A DNA stretch of 53,851 nt from Patescibacteria group bacterium (GTDB lineage: Bacteria > Patescibacteriota > Patescibacteriia > Patescibacteriales > BS150m-G62). Made by a program: the position numbers and the translations under genes. A model generated the notes under the pieces. That model did not search any database. It saw nothing but the letters and a program-made list of their open reading frames with translations, and had not been told where the DNA came from. Each line of letters starts with the position of its first letter. The first letter of the stretch is position 1. Location of the stretch: assembly GCA_016784175.1 (NCBI GenBank), contig JADHVC010000004.1, forward strand, positions 1 through 53,851. Direction: 5' to 3'. This document shows, one piece after another, positions 682 through 53,683 of this stretch.

Positions 682-3423
682 ATGTCAATTTTAAACATAA
701 GAAAAAGGTCTGGCAATATTGTTAGTTTTGATCAAAATAGGATTGTTGTGGCGATTAATAAGGCAGTGGAGGTTAGTGGTGAAGAGGTTGGTCCTACATT
801 CGCGGCTAATTTGGCTGAAGAAGTTGTTATGAATATTGAGGCAGATTATAATGGTCTTGACTTAATTCCAAGTGTCGAAGATATTCAAGATTTGGTAGAA
901 AAAAAGATAGTAGAGTCTGGTAATTTTGAAATAGCAAAGGTTTATATTTTGTATCGTGCAGAAAGAGCAAGAGCAAGAGCCGAGTCTAGATTAAATGAAT
1001 TGAAACGGATGGAAAAGAATTTACTTAAGGTTGTAAAGTTTATGGGGAGATCTGAGGTTTTTGATATAAATAAGATTTCGAAAATATTAAATAGAGCATC
1101 ATTTGGCTTGAGGAATGTAGACGTGCCTTTATTGTTGGAGGATCTTAAAAAGAATATTTTTGATGGAATAGCAACTTCAGATATAAGCAAGGCTCTTGTG
1201 ATGGTAACGAAAAGTTATATTGAAAGAGATTCGGATTATTCTTTTTTAGCAGCTAGGCTCTTATTGACTTCAGTCTATAAGGAGGTATTTCATGAAAAAA
1301 TTCAAACAGATTCTTTTAGTGATATATATCAAAGGAGTTTTGAGGTGAATATGAAGCGGGGAGTAGAGGCTAAAAGAATATCTAAGTCGTTGCTTGAGTT
1401 TGATTATAAGATAATTGGTGCAGCTTTAGTTCCAGATAGAGATTGCCTTTTGACATATTTAGGGGCTCAGACTCTTTATGATAGATATTTTATTCATATT
1501 AATGAACAACGAATTGAAGCACCGCAGCATTTTTGGATGCGAGTTGCTATGGGATTAGCTCAGAAAGAGGAGAACAAAGAAGAGAAGGCAATAGAGTTTT
1601 ACGAGGTTTTATCAACATTAAGGTTTGTGTGCTCTACTCCAACTTTGTTTAATTCTGGAACTACTCACCAACAACTTTCATCTTGTTATTTATCAAGTAT
1701 CGATGATAATTTGGAACATATTTTTAAAGTAATAAAAGATAATGCAATGTTGTCAAAGTGGGCGGGCGGTATCGGAAATGATTGGACACGAATTAGAGCA
1801 ACGGGTTCTCATATCGAAGGCACGAATGGAAAATCTCAGGGTGTTATTCCTTTTATGAAAATAGCTAATGATACAGCAGTCGCGGTTAATCAGGGTGGTA
1901 AGAGAAAGGGTGCCGTATGTGCTTATTTGGAAACGTGGCATATTGATATTATTGATTTTTTGGAGTTAAGAAAGAATACGGGTGATGAAAGAAGACGAAC
2001 GCCAGATATGAGTACTGCAAATTGGGTTCCAGACTTGTTTATGCAAAGAGTGATTAGTGATCAAACTTGGACATTGTTTTCGCCCAATGAGGTGAGCGAT
2101 TTGCATGACCTATATGGCGCTAAATTTAAAGAAAAGTATGAGGCATATGAAAAATTAGCGGAGGATGGGAAAATAAAAGTATTCAAGAAAATGAAAGCGG
2201 CTGAATTGTGGCGAAAAATGATAACTATGCTTTTTGAGACAGGTCATCCTTGGATAACATTTAAGGATCCTTGTAATGTTCGTTCTCCTCAGGATCATGT
2301 TGGAGTTGTTCATAGTTCAAATTTGTGCACAGAAATTACTTTAAATAGTTCTCGTGATGAAACTGCAGTTTGTAATCTTGGTTCTATAAATATGGCTCAA
2401 CACTATAATGAGTCACTTGGTGATGTTGATAAAGAGAAGCTTGCAAATACAGTAAAAGTAGCTATGAGAATGCTAGATAATGTTGTTGATATAAATTATT
2501 ATCCGATTCCAGAAACAAATAATGCAAATGTAATGCATAGACCGGTTGGGCTTGGGTTTATGGGTTTTCAAGATATTCTGTATGCGAAGGATTTGGACTT
2601 TGACTCTGAGGTTGCTGTTGATTATTCTGATGAATTGATGGAATATATTTCGTATAATGCAATTTTGGCAAGTAGTATTTTAGCTAAGGAGCGCGGGTCT
2701 TATCATAGTTTCGTTGGCTCTAAGTGGGATAGAGGGTTAATGCCAATTGATACTATCTCGCTACTAGAGAAAGAAAGAGGGGAGGCTGTGCGTATTAATA
2801 AGAGAGAGAAGCTTGATTGGCAGGTAGTTCGAGATTCAATTAAAGCTTATGGTATGAGAAATTCAAATTGTCTTGCTATTGCACCAACAGCTACTATTTC
2901 AAATATTTCCGGTTGCATTCCTTGCATTGAACCTATTTATAAAAATCTTTATGTAAAATCTAATATGGGTGGGGAATTTACAGTAATGAATAAACATTTG
3001 GTTGATGAGTTAAAACGGATTGGTATGTGGAATATGGAGGTTTTTAAAAAGATAAAGATTAATGATGGTTCAATTCAGAATATTTCGGATTTACCAATCT
3101 CGATTCGTGATAAATATAAAGAGACATTTGAAATTGATCCTATTTGGTTTATAAAGCATGCAGCAGTTCGAGCAAAATGGTTGGATCAGTCTCAGTCTGT
3201 AAATATTTTTTATCGTGGTCAGTCTGGAAAGGTTATCTCGGATATTTATATATCGGCTTGGCTTATGGGTCTAAAGACTACTTACTATTTAAGAACACTT
3301 GGGGCAAGTCAAGTTGAAAAGTCAACCGTAAAAGATATTGGAACGCATAAACGAGATAATAGTGAAGTTGAAAAGGTAGTATGCGCTGTCGAAAACGGTG
3401 CTAATTGTGACGCTTGTCAATAG
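682..3423 (+). CDS. nrdA: Ribonucleoside-diphosphate reductase, alpha subunit (class I)
   Basis: Catalytic subunit that reduces ribonucleoside diphosphates to deoxyribonucleotides in the cytoplasm with NrdB. It has 913 residues. Residues 1-100 are an ATP-cone allosteric domain; residues ~105-200 resemble the N-terminal cone of E. coli NrdA, so there are probably two cones in tandem. The catalytic core shows the active-site cysteines in RFVCSTPTLFNSG and AVCNLGSINM, and the radical Asn/Cys/Glu set in NLCTEITLN. The C-terminus CDACQ carries the CxxC redox shuttle. No intein is visible. The ATG overlaps a TATAAT-like string (678-683) and has no Shine-Dalgarno sequence. nrdB follows after a 534-bp gap filled by a mobile element and tandem structured repeats. 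Confidence 0.95.
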   Translation: MSILNIRKRSGNIVSFDQNRIVVAINKAVEVSGEEVGPTFAANLAEEVVMNIEADYNGLDLIPSVEDIQDLVEKKIVESGNFEIAKVYILYRAERARARAESRLNELKRMEKNLLKVVKFMGRSEVFDINKISKILNRASFGLRNVDVPLLLEDLKKNIFDGIATSDISKALVMVTKSYIERDSDYSFLAARLLLTSVYKEVFHEKIQTDSFSDIYQRSFEVNMKRGVEAKRISKSLLEFDYKIIGAALVPDRDCLLTYLGAQTLYDRYFIHINEQRIEAPQHFWMRVAMGLAQKEENKEEKAIEFYEVLSTLRFVCSTPTLFNSGTTHQQLSSCYLSSIDDNLEHIFKVIKDNAMLSKWAGGIGNDWTRIRATGSHIEGTNGKSQGVIPFMKIANDTAVAVNQGGKRKGAVCAYLETWHIDIIDFLELRKNTGDERRRTPDMSTANWVPDLFMQRVISDQTWTLFSPNEVSDLHDLYGAKFKEKYEAYEKLAEDGKIKVFKKMKAAELWRKMITMLFETGHPWITFKDPCNVRSPQDHVGVVHSSNLCTEITLNSSRDETAVCNLGSINMAQHYNESLGDVDKEKLANTVKVAMRMLDNVVDINYYPIPETNNANVMHRPVGLGFMGFQDILYAKDLDFDSEVAVDYSDELMEYISYNAILASSILAKERGSYHSFVGSKWDRGLMPIDTISLLEKERGEAVRINKREKLDWQVVRDSIKAYGMRNSNCLAIAPTATISNISGCIPCIEPIYKNLYVKSNMGGEFTVMNKHLVDELKRIGMWNMEVFKKIKINDGSIQNISDLPISIRDKYKETFEIDPIWFIKHAAVRAKWLDQSQSVNIFYRGQSGKVISDIYISAWLMGLKTTYYLRTLGASQVEKSTVKDIGTHKRDNSEVEKVVCAVENGANCDACQ

Positions 3424-3450
3424 GATATAGTGTAATTGATAGCTGCATAG

Positions 3451-3639
3451 GTAACTGCTTACTATGTCTGCATCACTTTTCCGCTTAGGATGGAATATTG
3501 GGCAATTTTTTACGCACAATTTAACAAAAATTTTAAATTCGCTTTACTCAAACATAAAATTTTTTAAGTTAAATTCTGCGAAAAATTACTACATGTTCCA
3601 TATGCGCTCAAAAATAATGCAGACATAGTGAGCAATTAC
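3451..3639. mobile_element. 189-bp MITE-like element, copy 1
   Basis: First of five near-identical 189-bp elements with ~23-bp terminal inverted repeats (GTAACTGCTTACTATGTCTG at the left end, its near complement at the right). The inverted match continues inward, so the whole element is an imperfect palindrome. It starts 28 bp after the nrdA stop. Flanks CTGCATAG and CTATATGG match at only 5 of 8 positions, so its target duplication is eroded or absent. It has no coding capacity; short frames crossing it are artefacts. Confidence 0.8.
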
Positions 3640-3659
3640 CTATATGGTTTCTAGTGACT

Positions 3660-3794
3660 AAATATAGTTTTCTTTCTTTTTATCTTTCTCCTGCTTTGGC
3701 TTTGGATTATCGGGGTAAAATTAATTGGAAGTTCTCTTTCAGCCTGGTGAAACAAAGTTCGAGTGTGGGGTGGGATAGAAAGGAAGAAAACTAG
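3660..3794 (+). ncRNA. Structured RNA candidate, tandem unit A (upstream of nrdB)
   Basis: A 135-bp unit whose ends pair over ~23 bp (3668-3691 with 3767-3790, with G-U pairs). Inside are a 5-bp stem CTTTG/CAAAG (3700-3704 with 3753-3757) and a hairpin GGAAG-TTCT-CTTTC (3727-3740). Single-stranded stretches such as GGGGTAAAA, AATTGGAAGT and CTTTCAGCCT are shared with unit B. GGCT and AGCC could form a pseudoknot. I do not recognise a known riboswitch class. Strand is inferred from the flanking nrd genes. Confidence 0.55.
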
Positions 3795-3935
3795 AAATAT
3801 AGCTTCTTTCTCTTTTTGTTACTCTCCTGCTTTGGGCTCGTATTCCTGGGGTAAAACTAATTGGAAGTCCTCTTTCAGCCTAGTAAGACGAGGTTCGAGT
3901 TGGGGGAGTAACAGAAAGGGAAAGAAGAATCTAAG
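3795..3935 (+). ncRNA. Structured RNA candidate, tandem unit B (upstream of nrdB)
   Basis: Second copy of the preceding unit. Its outer stem pairs 3803-3827 with 3902-3927. The inner stem is CTCGT/ACGAG (3837-3841 with 3888-3892) where unit A has CTTTG/CAAAG: three of five base pairs differ, each by a compensatory change. The GGAAG-TCCT-CTTTC hairpin lies at 3863-3876. The outer stem also keeps pairing while its sequence drifts. This supports an RNA-level function. It ends about 12 bp before the nrdB -10 box, so it may be a separate transcript, the 3' end of the nrdA message, or part of a longer nrdB leader. Confidence 0.6.
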
Positions 3936-3947
3936 TTTAAATATCAT

Positions 3948-3953
3948 TATAAT
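3948..3953 (+). promoter_or_regulatory. -10 box of nrdB, probably leaderless
   Basis: A perfect TATAAT ends 4 bp before the ATG at 3958, so transcription would begin at or next to the start codon. No Shine-Dalgarno sequence and no clear -35 box are seen. Confidence 0.45.
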
Positions 3954-3957
3954 ATTT

Positions 3958-5007
3958 ATGAGCTTTATACAACCAATCAAAAGAACAGATATAAGAGTGA
4001 GTGTTAATGATAGGCGGATAATTAATGGTGCTGAAGAGGCTGATGTGGTACAGCTTTCACCTATGAAGCATAAATGGGCTTGGCAGGCATATTTAGACGC
4101 TAATGCGAACCATTGGTTACCGACAGAGATTCAAATGCAGCGAGATATTGAGTTGTGGAAAGATCCAAATGGGTTAACTGAGGATGAGCGAACGGCGTTT
4201 AAGCGGGTGATGGGTTTTTTTACGACAGGAGATTCTATTGTGGCGAATAATTTGGTGTTGGCAATTTATAAGCAAATTACTTCACCAGAGTGTCGAATGT
4301 ACTTGTTGCGACAGTCTTATGAAGAGGCTATCCATACTCATGCTTATCAGTATATTATAGAGAGCTTGGAGTTAGATGAAGGTGAAATATTTAATATGTA
4401 TCGGGAAAAAGCATCAATATTTAATAAAGATCAAATGTTGATTAACTTTAGTTTAGGGGTGTTGGATCCAAATTTTTCGACAAAGGGTAAAGAAAATACG
4501 CAAAAGTTTTTAGAGAATTTAATTGGTTTTTATTTAATTTGTGAAGGTTTATTTTTTTATACAAGTTTTGCTGTTATTTTGAGTTTTCAAAGGCAGAATA
4601 AGTTAGTAGGCGCCTCGGAGCAAATTCAGTATATAATGCGAGATGAGTCGATGCACATGAATTTCGGGATAGATATGATAAATACTATAAAAGAAGAAAA
4701 TCCTGGAGTTTGGACTTCGAGTTTAGAAAATAAAATTTATGCAGCTATAGAGGAGGCTGTGCAATTGGAAGTGGTTTTTGCTAAGGATTGTTTTCCGAAA
4801 GGAATCTTGGGTATTAATTCTGACCTTTTTGAGCAATATATGCGACATATTGCGGACCGACGGCTTGAGCGGGTAGGACTTGTGGCGCGGTATAATGTGG
4901 AGAATCCTTTCCCGTGGATGAGTGAAGCAATTGACTTAAGTAAAGAAAAGAACTTTTTTGAGTCTAGGGTAACTGAATATAAAACTGGCGGAACTTTGGA
5001 TTGGTAG
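3958..5007 (+). CDS. nrdB: Ribonucleoside-diphosphate reductase, beta subunit (class I)
   Basis: Radical-generating small subunit that pairs with NrdA. I place the start at the ATG at 3958 (MSFIQPIKR, 349 residues). The same frame is open upstream to 3763, but that part translates the tandem RNA repeat and does not look like protein. The ferritin-like diiron fold is clear: E-x-x-H-x-x-x-Y in EEAIHTHAY supplies metal ligands and the radical tyrosine (Tyr130), and DESMHMNFG carries the second Glu/His pair. Because the tyrosine is present, a class Ia/Ib-type radical is more likely than the Tyr-less class Ic. No nrdI is seen nearby. Confidence 0.93.
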   Translation: MSFIQPIKRTDIRVSVNDRRIINGAEEADVVQLSPMKHKWAWQAYLDANANHWLPTEIQMQRDIELWKDPNGLTEDERTAFKRVMGFFTTGDSIVANNLVLAIYKQITSPECRMYLLRQSYEEAIHTHAYQYIIESLELDEGEIFNMYREKASIFNKDQMLINFSLGVLDPNFSTKGKENTQKFLENLIGFYLICEGLFFYTSFAVILSFQRQNKLVGASEQIQYIMRDESMHMNFGIDMINTIKEENPGVWTSSLENKIYAAIEEAVQLEVVFAKDCFPKGILGINSDLFEQYMRHIADRRLERVGLVARYNVENPFPWMSEAIDLSKEKNFFESRVTEYKTGGTLDW

Positions 5008-6585: not shown

Positions 6586-6774
6586 GTAACTGCTCACTAT
6601 ACCTGCATCACTTTTTCGCTTAGGATGGAATATTGGGCAATTTTTTACGCACAATTTAACAAAAATTTTAAACTCGTTTCACTCAAACATAAAATTTTTT
6701 AAGTTAAATTCTGCTAAAAATTACTACATATTCCATATGCGCTTAAAAATAATGCAGGTATAGTGAGTAGTTAT
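6586..6774. mobile_element. 189-bp MITE-like element, copy 2
   Basis: Same family as copy 1, with terminal repeats GTAACTGCTCACTATACCTG and its complement. It sits directly behind the terminator at 6547-6575. Flanks TCTTTTTT (left) and TCTTTTTC (right) match 7/8 if the right end is taken one base shorter. With the terminator it accounts for the whole gap before lepA. Confidence 0.85.
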
Positions 6775-6781
6775 CTTTTTC

Positions 6782-20759: not shown

Positions 20760-20768
20760 GAGATGTAA

Positions 20769-20957
20769 GTAACCACTTACTATGTCTGCATTACTTTCTC
20801 GCTTAGGATGGAATATTGGGCAATTTTTTACGCACAATTTAACAAAAATTTTAAACTCGCTTCATTCAAACATAAAATTTTTTAAGTTAAATTCTGTTAA
20901 AAATTACTACATATTCCATATGCGTTCAAAAATAATGCAGACATAGTGAGTAGTTTT
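20769..20957. mobile_element. 189-bp MITE-like element, copy 3, with perfect 8-bp target duplication
   Basis: Same family as the copy at 3451. It is flanked exactly by AGATGTAA on both sides (20761-20768 and 20958-20965). It lies 9 bp after the adaptor stop and 31 bp before the ABC ATPase gene, that is, inside the exporter operon. It may attenuate or re-initiate transcription there. Confidence 0.92.
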
Positions 20958-25740: not shown

Positions 25741-25929
25741 GTAAGTGCTCACTATGCCTACATCACTTTTTCGCTTAGGATGGAATATTGGGCAATTTTT
25801 TACGCACAATTTAACAAAAATTTTAAACTCACTTCACTCAAACATAAAATTTTTTAAGTTAAATTCTGCTAAAAATTACTACATATTCCATATGCGCTCA
25901 AAAATAATGCAGGCATAATGAGCAGTTAC
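25741..25929. mobile_element. 189-bp MITE-like element, copy 4, with 8-bp target duplication (7/8)
   Basis: Flanks GAATTACT (25733-25740) and GAATTATT (25930-25937) differ at one base. The left duplication begins with the last base of the flippase stop codon. The terminal repeats run GTAAGTGCTCACTATGCCTA and its near complement. Confidence 0.9.
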
Positions 25930-41171: not shown

Positions 41172-41360
41172 GTAACTATTCACTATATCTACATCACTTT
41201 TTCGCTTAGGATGGAATGTTGGGCAATTTTTTACGCACAATTTAACAAAAATTTTAAACTCGCTTCACTCAAACATAAATTTTTTTAAGTTAAATTCTGC
41301 TAAAAATTACTACATATTCCATATGCGCTCAAAAATAATGCAGACATAATGAGAAGTTAC
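41172..41360. mobile_element. 189-bp MITE-like element, copy 5, with perfect 8-bp target duplication
   Basis: Terminal repeats GTAACTATTCACTATATCTA and near complement. It is flanked exactly by CTCCCTTT (41164-41171 and 41361-41368). Because the duplicated target is the 3' arm and U-tract of a terminator, the empty site can be reconstructed with confidence. Confidence 0.93.
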
Positions 41361-41371
41361 CTCCCTTTTTC

Positions 41372-49957: not shown

Positions 49958-50881
49958 ATGACGACAGAGTCGATCACGTCCATCACGGATGGTCAGAGAA
50001 AGCAGTATTTTCGGTTTGGAGAGGATGCATTAGAGCGTGCTCTCACGGAGGCTGGCCTCGACAAAGAGGGCATCCAAAAACTTATTGGAAACGGAGGACA
50101 ATTTCAAGCAGACATGGTGGCCAGTATTAAAAGGCTTTCCGTCAGCAATCAGTTCGCCGATGAGGAAAAAGAGTCTACCCATGGGTATCTTTCGGGTTAT
50201 AAGCCCGATCCAAGTCTTGACGAAAATTTGGCTGACTTGGAAACTGAATTGGCAAGACTTCGTCAAATTCCAGAACTCGCTAGTGCTGATTACGATCGTG
50301 ATTATGCGGAGCGTATTCGTACTGGTGAAATCACGCTTCCAGTCGGAAATGAGCGTTGGACGTTGATCCCAAAATGGGAACTTCTCAGTAAAACCTATGG
50401 AGTTGCCGTCGAACGGCCACTTGCGCTTATCAGCCAAGACCGAGACGGAAATTTCCACAATTACCGTGAAGGTAAGCTTGGCGCAAGCTATCTTCGTCAA
50501 GGTGCACGTAGTGTCGAGATGTGGAAGCAATTGGCAAAAGACCAAAAAGGCGACATCTTGATCGTTCCAATTCAGGCTGGTATCGTCCATCGTGGACGAT
50601 CAGTTAGGCGGGCACGTGAAGTATTTCGTGCTCATGAGTTCGGTCTTGGTGCATTTGCCGTCGGAATGTTCATTTTGACACATCCAGAGCGCCTGAAGCA
50701 TCTTGATGATCTATGGATCGATTGCGCAGGAGATGAGTATTCACCGCATGCCGATGGCGATTTCCCGCGCGCCCCGCTCTTCCACTTCGATGACGGTCAG
50801 GTCAGGTTCGGCGCCTACTGGGTCAGCGATGCGCATTCGTACTACGGGTCGGCCTCTGGTTCGGTGGTCGTGTCGCAGTAA
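49958..50881 (+). CDS. DGR target protein with C-terminal variable ligand-binding domain
   Basis: 307 residues, no signal peptide or membrane helix. Residues 1-115 are helical and charged. Residues ~130-205 include GNERWTLIPKWELLSKTYGVAV. The C-terminal domain runs from GDILIVPIQAGIVHRGRS through FGLGAFAVGMFILTHPERL and LWIDCAGDEYSP into the variable region. Residues 264-307 are encoded by the VR; 13 of them are diversified (264, 271, 274, 276, 278, 283, 285, 286, 287, 291, 293, 295, 307). The fold is probably C-type-lectin-like, as in other DGR targets, but this is inferred. Codon use is far richer in C and G than in neighbouring genes. With its strong promoter and SD it is likely well expressed. 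Cytosolic or export-independent location is implied by the lack of a signal. Confidence 0.9.
   Translation: MTTESITSITDGQRKQYFRFGEDALERALTEAGLDKEGIQKLIGNGGQFQADMVASIKRLSVSNQFADEEKESTHGYLSGYKPDPSLDENLADLETELARLRQIPELASADYDRDYAERIRTGEITLPVGNERWTLIPKWELLSKTYGVAVERPLALISQDRDGNFHNYREGKLGASYLRQGARSVEMWKQLAKDQKGDILIVPIQAGIVHRGRSVRRAREVFRAHEFGLGAFAVGMFILTHPERLKHLDDLWIDCAGDEYSPHADGDFPRAPLFHFDDGQVRFGAYWVSDAHSYYGSASGSVVVSQ
50743..50878 (+). repeat. DGR variable repeat (VR)
   Basis: 136 bp ending at the last sense codon of the target gene. It aligns without gaps to the TR 568 bp downstream. It differs at 50747, 50768, 50769, 50777, 50783, 50789, 50805, 50810, 50811, 50813, 50816, 50828, 50834, 50840 and 50876. 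Every difference replaces an A of the TR (7 to G, 6 to C, 2 to T). The last ~35 bp before the final changed base are invariant and GC-rich, as expected for an initiation-of-homing site. Confidence 0.97.
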
Positions 50882-50944
50882 GATGCTTGAACTTTGAACA
50901 CTTGAATCTTGTGTCGAAAACTTGATACTTGATTCTTGAAACTT

Positions 50945-50959
50945 CCTGCCGAAGGCAGG
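50945..50959 (+). other. Small hairpin downstream of the VR
   Basis: CCTGCC-GAA-GGCAGG, a perfect 6-bp stem 66 bp after the VR. In the Bordetella phage DGR a hairpin just after the VR promotes homing; a similar role here is possible. Short CCTGCC/GGCAGG palindromes are also common scattered repeats in CPR genomes. Confidence 0.45.
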
Positions 50960-50970
50960 TCGCAACAATT

Positions 50971-51004
50971 GGGGTTATCCACAGGCTGGATAACCCCTTT
51001 TTTC
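50971..51004 (+). terminator. Terminator of the target gene
   Basis: GGGGTTATCC-ACAGGCT-GGATAACCCC followed by T-rich sequence (TTTTTT): a perfect 10-bp stem. Confidence 0.93.
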
Positions 51005-51462
51005 TTTGCTGATAATAATGTACAATAATATTGAGCTAGGCTAGTGCATGGTAGTTTACGAATTACTGTCGCCGAACTCTCTCTACGAACGAGAAAACAG
51101 CCAGAGTCCTTAAAGATTACGATTTTTGAGGAGAGTGCTGGTTTAAGGAGATACTGCTTGTTTTAGTCTGGAGCAGATGTTTCGGATTTATGAATATTGT
51201 TTATTGTATGGAGCTACTGCCAGATAAAATACAGAGAGAAGAGCATATAATCCACTAACTGGTGGACGTAAACCTCAACTTTCAGTGGCCATGGATAGAT
51301 TAAAACAACTACCGAATGCCGATGGCGATTTCCCGAACGCCCCGATCTTCAACTTCAATGACGGTCAGGTCAAGTTCAACACCAACTGGGTCAGCAATGC
51401 GAATTCGAACTACGGGTCGGCCTCTGGTTCGGTGGTCGTGTCGAAGTCTCTTCTTCAAAGGT
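51005..51462 (+). ncRNA. DGR template RNA (TR plus flanks)
   Basis: The non-coding interval between two terminators. It holds ~300 nt of unique sequence, the TR and ~16 nt of 3' flank. In studied DGRs the RNA carrying the TR with its flanks is the template and primer platform for the RT. Local pairing is visible upstream of the TR: ACTCTC with GAGAGT, CAGC with GCTG, and CCACT-AACT-GGTGG (51252-51265). TACAAT at 51021-51026 is a possible -10 box without a good -35. Transcript ends are inferred, not seen. Confidence 0.7.
51311..51446 (+). repeat. DGR template repeat (TR)
   Basis: 136 bp, same orientation as the VR. Read in the VR frame it encodes Asn at almost every diversified codon (AAT or AAC, ten of thirteen), the codons that adenine mutagenesis can convert to the widest set of residues without stops. 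Of its 31 adenines 15 differ in the VR; none of its 105 other bases does. Its GC content is far above its surroundings, as in the target gene. Confidence 0.97.
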
Positions 51463-51491
51463 AAAAAAGCATCTAAATAAGATGCTTTTTT
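51463..51491. terminator. Bidirectional terminator between TR and avd
   Basis: AAAAAAGCATCT-AAATA-AGATGCTTTTTT: a perfect 12-bp stem ending in U-tracts on both strands, 2 bp from the avd stop codon. It ends the TR transcript and the avd message. Confidence 0.92.
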
Positions 51492-51492
51492 G

Positions 51493-51834
51493 CTATAATG
51501 ATTTTATCCATCCACCTAGCATTTTGCCAATCTCATTAACAATTTTTTCAATTCGCAAATATTTTTTATCATCTATTGCCTTGTTTTCCCTTAGTAATCT
51601 AATAAATATTCTTGCAATATTTAATTTTAAACTAACATTTTTTAGTATTGGACTTTTTTCGTTTCTTGGTAGTTGAGCGGCTAATAAAATGCCCTCAATT
51701 ATATCTAAAATAATCCTTTCACAACGCTCAAAAGTCGTAAATCTTTCATGCTTAGGTATTACTTTTCTAAAATCATGAAGAGTTTTATACAGCTCATAGG
51801 ATTTTTTGCAAATTGGTATTTCTAATGTATCCAT
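51493..51834 (-). CDS. Avd-like accessory variability determinant (four-helix bundle)
   Basis: 113 residues from the ATG at 51834 (MDTLEIPICKKSYELYKTLH); the frame is open further upstream but that part overlaps the RT gene. It is all-helical and basic, with the pattern of the four-helix-bundle/Avd family: YELYKTLHDFRKVIPKHERFTTFERCERIILDIIEGILLA (shown only as landmark segments here: YELYKTLHDF, IPKHERFT, IILDIIEGILLA). Avd forms a pentamer that binds the RT and template RNA and is needed for cDNA synthesis. It is encoded on the opposite strand to the RT, with a 9-bp intergenic space. Confidence 0.85.
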   Translation of the reverse strand: MDTLEIPICKKSYELYKTLHDFRKVIPKHERFTTFERCERIILDIIEGILLAAQLPRNEKSPILKNVSLKLNIARIFIRLLRENKAIDDKKYLRIEKIVNEIGKMLGGWIKSL

Positions 51835-51843
51835 TATAATTAT

Positions 51844-52890
51844 ATGAAGACTTGTAAGAATATATTTAATCAAATAATATCTCCTGAAAATTTATTAATT
51901 TCGTGGGATGAATTTAAAAAGGGAAAGGGGAGTAAGGAGGATGTAATGAAATTTGAGTGGAATTTGGAGGATAATATTTTTAAATTACACCATGAGCTAG
52001 TCAGTAAAAATTATAAACATTGTGAATATACTTCTTTCCATATTCATGATCCAAAAAGGAGGCATATTCACAAAGCGAGTGTCAGGGATCGTGTCTTACA
52101 TCACGCTATATTTAGAGTACTAAATCCGATTTTTGAGCCGTCATTTATTCATACTTCATTTTCTTGCCGTGTTGATAAGGGGACTCACAAGGGCATAACC
52201 GCTTTATCACAAATGTTGAATAAAGTCAGTCAAAATAATACACAAAAATGCTTCGCCTTAAAATGTGATGTAAAAAAATTCTTTGATACAGTTCATCATG
52301 GGATATTAAGAAATATTATTTCAAAACGAATTAAGGACAATAATGCTCTTTGGCTTTTAGAGGAAATAATCGAGAGCTATATTACTAAATATTCAAATTT
52401 GTTTGATAGGAGGGGTATTCCGATTGGAAATCTTACCTCACAATTGTTTGCTAATATATACATGAATGAATTTGATCAATTTATTAAGAGCGATTTAAGA
52501 ATAAAGCACTATGTTAGATATACTGATGACTTTGTAATAGTGTCTCAGGATGAAAAATATTTGATTAATTTAGCTAAAGTACTAAACTTTATTTTGCAAA
52601 CTAGGCTAGACTTAAAATTGCATCCAAGTAAGGTGTGGGTTAGAAAATACAGTCAAGGTATTGATTTTCTAGGTTCTGTTATTGTGCCTCATTACAAACT
52701 ACCAAGAGCCAAGACAAAGCAACGTATTTTTAGAAAAACCAAGCAGAAATTAAAGGAGTTTAATGGAGATAAGATTTCCGAAAATACATTAAATCAGACC
52801 TTGCAATCATATTTGGGTGTTCTTACTCACACAAGCTCTTTTAAGGTAAGTGAACAATTGAAAAATCAATACTTTTTCGGCATTAATTAG
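51844..52890 (+). CDS. DGR reverse transcriptase
   Basis: 348 residues. RT fingers and palm are clear: RDRVLHHAIFRVLNPIFEPSF, the first catalytic Asp at ~142 in LKCDVKKFFDTV, and RRGIPIGNLTSQLFANIYMNEFD with the DGR-type motif (I/L/V)GxxxSQ at 194-200. YTDD at 226-229 supplies the other two catalytic Asp, and the thumb includes VWVRKYSQGIDFLGSVI. It lacks the maturase and endonuclease domains of group II intron RTs. The IGNLTSQ motif and the adjacent TR/VR pair and avd assign it to a diversity-generating retroelement. It copies TR RNA with misincorporation opposite adenine. A TATAAT lies 3 bp before the ATG, in the 9-bp gap shared with avd. Confidence 0.95.
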   Translation: MKTCKNIFNQIISPENLLISWDEFKKGKGSKEDVMKFEWNLEDNIFKLHHELVSKNYKHCEYTSFHIHDPKRRHIHKASVRDRVLHHAIFRVLNPIFEPSFIHTSFSCRVDKGTHKGITALSQMLNKVSQNNTQKCFALKCDVKKFFDTVHHGILRNIISKRIKDNNALWLLEEIIESYITKYSNLFDRRGIPIGNLTSQLFANIYMNEFDQFIKSDLRIKHYVRYTDDFVIVSQDEKYLINLAKVLNFILQTRLDLKLHPSKVWVRKYSQGIDFLGSVIVPHYKLPRAKTKQRIFRKTKQKLKEFNGDKISENTLNQTLQSYLGVLTHTSSFKVSEQLKNQYFFGIN

Positions 52891-53148: not shown

Positions 53149-53269
53149 AAAAAAGGCCTTCCCAGTACTAGCGACAACTCCTTTCGAAATTGCCCTGCCC
53201 TCCTTTCGGAAAACAGACCCCTAAACAAAGAGTGCTAGCCTGTAGAAGGCCATCTCTATTGTTTAGGGG
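53149..53269 (-). ncRNA. Structured RNA candidate with pseudoknot and terminator
   Basis: Minus strand, ~121 nt. The 5' end CCCCTAAACAATAGAG pairs with CTCTTTGTTTAGGGG. The loop of that hairpin (GGCCTTC and CAGGCTAGC) pairs with the 3' end (GCTAGTACTG with one bulge, and GAAGGCC), which would make a pseudoknot or a switch. Two GAAA-capped hairpins lie between (TCC-GAAA-GGA and GGCAATTTC-GAAA-GGAGTTGTC). It ends GGCC plus six U. TATAAA sits 7 nt before the proposed 5' end. I do not recognise the family. Confidence 0.55.
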
Positions 53270-53425
53270 AATTTTATATTTCACCATGCCTAATTGTCAT
53301 TTCAATTAAGTTTAGGTATTGTTGAGAAGTTTATTTTATATAATTTATTTGATATTAATTTAATTAATTATATTATTAATATTACATTTTTTAATTAAAA
53401 AAACAAGATGATGATATTGAATAAT

Positions 53426-53499: not shown

Positions 53500-53683
53500 T
53501 ATACAAACAATCGAATATGGATTTATAAAACCTAACCCAGAAATGGTATGGTTTTAAAATCTCAATCCCAAAAGACATAAGAACGGCTTTCTAGCTGGTA
53601 TCCTGTCTTTTGGGTCAATTCTGAGAAATCGGGATTGGGATTCATCGCTTCGGCGGTGGGTTCGCCACTGGGAAGCCTTTTTT
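53500..53683 (+). ncRNA. Structured RNA candidate with strong terminator
   Basis: Three stem systems in order. AAAACC/GGTTTT encloses a CCA-GAAA-TGG hairpin (53527-53555). AATCTCAATCCC (53558-53569) pairs at 12 of 12 positions with GGGATTGGGATT (53631-53642) and encloses AAAAGACA/TGTCTTTT. Last comes a terminator GCTTC...GTGG-GTTCG-CCAC...GAAGC with six U (53647-53683). The CCC of the second stem could pair instead with GGG at 53612-53614, a possible switch. No coding frame or known family is recognised. Confidence 0.6.

Follow-up and report, generated by a model that had tools for sequence, protein, structure and literature searches.

The 534-bp gap between the ribonucleotide reductase genes nrdA and nrdB of a Patescibacteria group bacterium (GenBank assembly GCA_016784175.1, contig JADHVC010000004.1; the window, i.e. 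the whole stretch of DNA analysed, comprises 53,851 nucleotides) contains a palindromic repeat followed by two tandem units which, judged from their sequences, look like transcribed RNA with selected pairing. The pair has the appearance of a local element for RNA-level control or processing, and is no proven sensor of nucleotides. The locus is laid out as follows.

682..3423, + strand: nrdA, class I ribonucleotide reductase large subunit with ATP cone (Pfam PF02867, PF00317, PF03477)
About 3441-3650 (3447..3643 as a feature), no strand assigned: dispersed palindromic MITE-like repeat, between nrdA and unit 1
3667..3791, + strand: unit 1, structured RNA (MFE -58.2 kcal/mol, z -8.77; covariation with unit 2)
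3667..3686, + strand: unit 1 closing stem, 5' arm (partner 3772-3791)
3715..3724, + strand: unit 1 one-sided bulge, 10 nt, GTAAAATTAA
3725..3742, + strand: unit 1 apical hairpin, UUGGAAG/CUUUCAG
3772..3791, + strand: unit 1 closing stem, 3' arm
3803..3927, + strand: unit 2, structured RNA (MFE -60.9 kcal/mol, z -6.75; covariation with unit 1)
3803..3822, + strand: unit 2 closing stem, 5' arm (partner 3908-3927)
3851..3860, + strand: unit 2 one-sided bulge, 10 nt, GTAAAACTAA
3861..3878, + strand: unit 2 apical hairpin, UUGGAAG/CUUUCAG
3908..3927, + strand: unit 2 closing stem, 3' arm
3928..3957, + strand: A/T-rich leader from unit 2 to the nrdB start, without a terminator-like site
3958..5007, + strand: nrdB, ribonucleotide reductase small subunit (Pfam PF00268, 288.6 bits)

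The MITE-like repeat at 3447..3643 is a neighbour of the units and lies outside the RNA. It is approximately 190 bp long, with copies in the window at about 3441-3650, 6586-6776, 20766-20950, 25741-25929 and 41172-41362, and it occupies at least 40 distinct places (3447-3643 included) in the 1.21-Mb genome at 90-100 % identity, a lower bound given that 40 of 116 first-look candidates were scored. Among other genomes of the order, 11 of 95 contain only weak partial matches to it (25-61 bp).

The two units were delimited by a repeat finder at 3668-3790 and 3804-3926 (76 % identical, spacing 136), and in register they agree at 93 of 125 positions (68/85 in the core and 25/40 in the closing stem). 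Each is predicted to form a single unbranched long hairpin, closed by a 20-bp stem common to both, that ends in a 7-bp apical hairpin and is interrupted by small internal loops and by a 10-nt bulge on one side (GUAAAAYUAA); none of the 200 dinucleotide shuffles per unit that provided the z baseline folded as well. In a G+C-corrected window fold scan, performed without shuffles, positions 3781-3920, over unit 2, constituted the most structured 140-nt stretch on the + strand. The original prediction of tandem structured RNAs between nrdA and nrdB is thus borne out by the repeat finder, the fold z-scores and covariation, and the closing stem and GGAAG/CTTTC hairpin that it assigned to each unit were found in both. 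The closing-stem energies are 10-20 kcal/mol better for cognate arms (-25.1 and -33.8 kcal/mol) than for crossed ones (-13.9 and -15.3 kcal/mol); being mutually incompatible, the stems should therefore keep the units as two separate hairpins, and drift could produce such orthogonality. A coding role for the units was set aside, since their 136-nt spacing is not divisible by three. Read in the 5' direction, the nrdB frame stays open across unit 2 as far as a GTG at 3763 (window 3763-3957), which is probably due to chance.

The pairing has been retained while the letters changed. Substitutions affect 32 of the 125 positions in register, and 23 of them fall in the 96 paired columns, approximately as expected from an even spread. 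Ten of the 48 pairs have changed on both sides and are still paired, seven of them within the closing stem, and a further three show one-sided changes via G-U. All 96 cells contain standard pairs and no pair is broken, a result that is partly built in, since the fold was derived from the same two sequences; the number of doubly changed pairs depends less on this. When partners were slid by 1-3 columns, only 0-1 doubly changed pairs were left, while moving the 32 substitutions to random like bases gave on average 1.4 compensated pairs (maximum 6 in 20,000 trials) and 11.9 broken ones. With two sequences, this covariation counts changes and not independent families; at that level, the compensation, including a closing stem that drifts yet stays paired, is stronger than first claimed. 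The proposed inner-stem change from CTTTG/CAAAG to CTCGT/ACGAG is indeed compensatory, but at two pairs in register (columns 35/90 and 37/88), the third of the three proposed requiring a one-base shift. Similarly, the loops were said to be conserved, which holds for the 10-nt bulge (GTAAAAYTAA, 9/10 alike) and the terminal loop (3/4) but not overall, as 9 of the 29 unpaired columns differ.

Palindromic DNA elements are expected to fold about equally well on either strand. The folding energies of the units on the + and - strands are -58.2 and -21.2 kcal/mol (unit 1) and -60.9 and -35.8 kcal/mol (unit 2), with 15 and 11 G-U pairs, respectively, on the + strand versus 2 and 1 on the - strand. In a strand-neutral pairing script that scores all mismatches alike, the G-T to A-C ratio was 11:1 for unit 1 (p 0.006) and 10:1 for unit 2 (p 0.012), p values that are not independent given that the units are related. 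No significant imbalance was detected in five hairpins of relatives or in any of the five MITE copies of the window (7:7, 3:3, 4:4, 2:5 and 4:6), and the copy near nrdA folds on both strands, unlike the units. LOOT RNA, a known RNA, scored 2:2 in the same test, and a balanced count therefore does not rule out RNA. The + strand folding energy and the excess of G-T over A-C place the signal on the nrdA/nrdB strand, and the excess points to selection acting on a gene-strand transcript.

This asymmetry bears on the possibility that the units represent a MITE- or REP-like mobile hairpin, low in copy number or a relic, which entered an insertion-prone gap either twice or a single time with later duplication. 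Such an origin is considered rather unlikely. The asymmetry is strong and none of the five MITE copies in the window shows it; strand specificity could, however, also be a property of an element that moves as single-stranded DNA. The units resemble MITE/REP palindromic repeats in being long intergenic hairpins, here adjoining a real MITE-like repeat in the same gap, but differ from them in that they are not dispersed and in that their pairing is strand-asymmetric. The motif AAATAT lies near each unit edge (3660, 3795 and 3939, the three occurrences within 3401-4000), as in a target duplication or a duplication joint, but it is common here, at a base rate of 2.0 per kb.

Copies in unrelated contexts, which would mark a mobile repeat, were sought, and no second place was found in the window's own genome: BLAST and covariance model R1 (E up to 10) recovered only the two units, side by side, which argues against a mobile relic and departs from the several separate genomic copies characteristic of MITEs. 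The third row of the R1 search of this genome was the opposite strand of unit 2. Across the order, where the window's genome was the only one of its family sampled, the covariance model matched 1 of 111 genomes, namely its own, and none of the 110 others. The phylum draw yielded matches in 2 of 379 genomes (own and G376), the class draw, searched with core model R2, in 2 of 380 (own and G790), and a set of 40 genomes (own and 39 relatives), searched with laxer filters than the larger sets, in its own and G018 only; these draws overlap, and the counts are not additive. The three outside matches were rejected as homologues, G376 (27.6 bits in the genome search) being a palindromic stretch matched by the model on either strand and devoid of the core letters, G790 (21.1 bits, E 0.08) a poor match and G018 (16.4 bits) a partial one. 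A DNA match in G005 was likewise discarded, as it spans 28 nt inside the pyrimidine-rich closing arm. Pattern scans returned nothing for a 21-mer in 84,980 species or for a 33-mer in IMG/VR; a looser 20-base pattern found 23 stretches in genome_contigs and one in viral_contigs, none resembling the units (best model score of all 24, 13.1 bits), and two more viral matches, to another pattern, had no model match. Blastn against phages and plasmids gave only chance matches of 22-35 nt (E 0.02 or worse). No mention of the element was found within a limited set of literature sources and terms; in passages of PMC11665869, riboswitches figure as proposed tools.

The operon arrangement itself is shared. 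NrdB was detected at E 1e-30 in 27 of the 111 order genomes, the window's own included, and in 24 of the 26 order relatives with nrdB, nrdA is the gene immediately preceding it; at L050 and L062, the nrdB start is within 465 bases of the end of the fetched locus and nrdA was not seen there. The nrdA-nrdB gap measures 17-136 bp in 23 of these 24 relatives, too short for the element, and 511 bp in one (G002). Among the 12 of the 24 gaps that were folded, mostly the longer ones, five (L047, L058, L063, L065 and L066) contain hairpins at z -5 or below that are unrelated to the units. Used as queries, the L065 and L058 hairpins were recovered as dispersed repeats from other places in their genomes or family, and that of L063 matches that of L065 at 79 %. 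The gaps at L063 and L065 (genomes G048 and G021) carry a different palindromic repeat, common to two genera of one family and also present elsewhere in those genomes. Since the relatives' gaps are short and hold no homologue, the element appears to be a lineage-specific insertion and not a conserved nrd-linked aptamer, and its absence from the relatives searched implies that nrdAB can generally be expressed without it. Most simply, the sequences suggest that it arrived on the window's own lineage, in an arrangement whose gap accepts hairpin insertions. The short gaps and the other dispersed hairpins in relatives also fit a mobile relic: at least two hairpin kinds there are dispersed repeats, and hairpins at this position may thus mean only insertion tolerance.

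Rfam 15 gave no gathering-score match within 3424-3960, and a relaxed search (E up to 10) returned only chance long-hairpin miRNA models and others far under threshold (best 37.4 versus 150 bits), in keeping with the original view that no known class fits. Tandem riboswitches exist, for example those for glycine, and the units resemble them as two homologous structured units in tandem before a gene, with a conserved bulge and apical loop, drifting stems and a location in the ribonucleotide reductase operon. A tandem riboswitch controlling nrdB, for instance by nucleotide sensing, is nevertheless improbable. The units are unbranched, no relatives of them were found beside nrd genes or elsewhere in the genomes searched, the weak and dissimilar G376, G790 and G018 matches falling short of an aptamer conserved across genomes before related genes, and no expression platform was seen, as the gap contains no terminator-like site and the nrdB start lies outside the units, which do not mask it. 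The nucleotide-related signal that had been suggested is therefore unsupported. LOOT RNA (RF03000) is likewise a structured RNA of this genome, but it has several stems, and the units do not match its model.

LOOT RNA occurs in the window beside a diversity-generating retroelement (49958-52890), at 53173-53318 on the - strand (55.8 bits), and a second candidate on the opposite strand, 53529-53651 (+), scored just below the threshold (45.0 versus 46.4). The retroelement comprises the following parts, and all 15 mismatches between its variable and template repeats fall at template adenines.

49958-50881: target ORF, with the variable repeat at 50743-50879
51311-51447: template repeat
51493-51873, - strand: bAvd
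51844-52890: reverse transcriptase

Intercistronic hairpins that process or stabilise operon messages are known, for example in the puf operon. Like them, the units place a long hairpin between two genes that run in the same direction and encode parts of one complex, and it lacks a terminator tail, no G+C stem followed by a U tract having been found; unlike them, the units are present as two copies that have diverged around a conserved, bulged core. A distance of 30 nt separates the end of unit 2 from the nrdB ATG, which is left uncovered, and the pairing predicted at the nrdB start is partial and involves its own A/T-rich leader, not the units. Promoter-like sites in the gap are at shuffle level (2 versus 1.8). 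The lack of a terminator or extra promoter, the uncovered nrdB start and the separateness of the units therefore favour a post-transcriptional role, and a duplicated, lineage-specific intercistronic hairpin with a function in processing or stabilising the nrdA-nrdB message is tentatively preferred. The nrdA-nrdB order of the relatives and the strong, unrelated hairpins in five of their 12 folded gaps also speak for this reading.

The units may instead be a pair of trans-acting small RNAs, excised from the nrdA-nrdB message or made from their own promoter. Compactness, high stability and a conserved core speak for this, as does a folding energy comparable to those of the window's RNase P and LOOT RNA segments, but given the promoter counts, the lack of a terminator and the fact that no target is known, such a pair seems unlikely.

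Under the preferred reading of an intercistronic hairpin, the units would be co-transcribed with nrdA and nrdB, and each would immediately form a rod with some 50 pairs, in which the 20-bp closing stem would be long enough to make RNase III a candidate nuclease. Acting after transcription, the two units would separate the nrdA portion of the message from the nrdB portion, or protect these portions, and thereby set their relative amounts, with the conserved bulged core as a putative recognition feature for a protein or nuclease. It is much less probable that the units represent a novel class of tandem regulatory RNAs by which a small-genome lineage of family rank adjusts its class I ribonucleotide reductase, each bulged hairpin being a metabolite or protein sensor and the incompatible closing stems keeping the sensors independent.

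The double changes and the excess of G-T over A-C set the units apart from the adjacent DNA palindromes, and the test may be used on other orphan hairpins. Even if the element is merely local, tandem copies alone, without a homologue, show signs of RNA-level selection. If the units do act on nrdA-nrdB, the supply of DNA precursors would be controlled at the RNA level in a lineage that has received little study.
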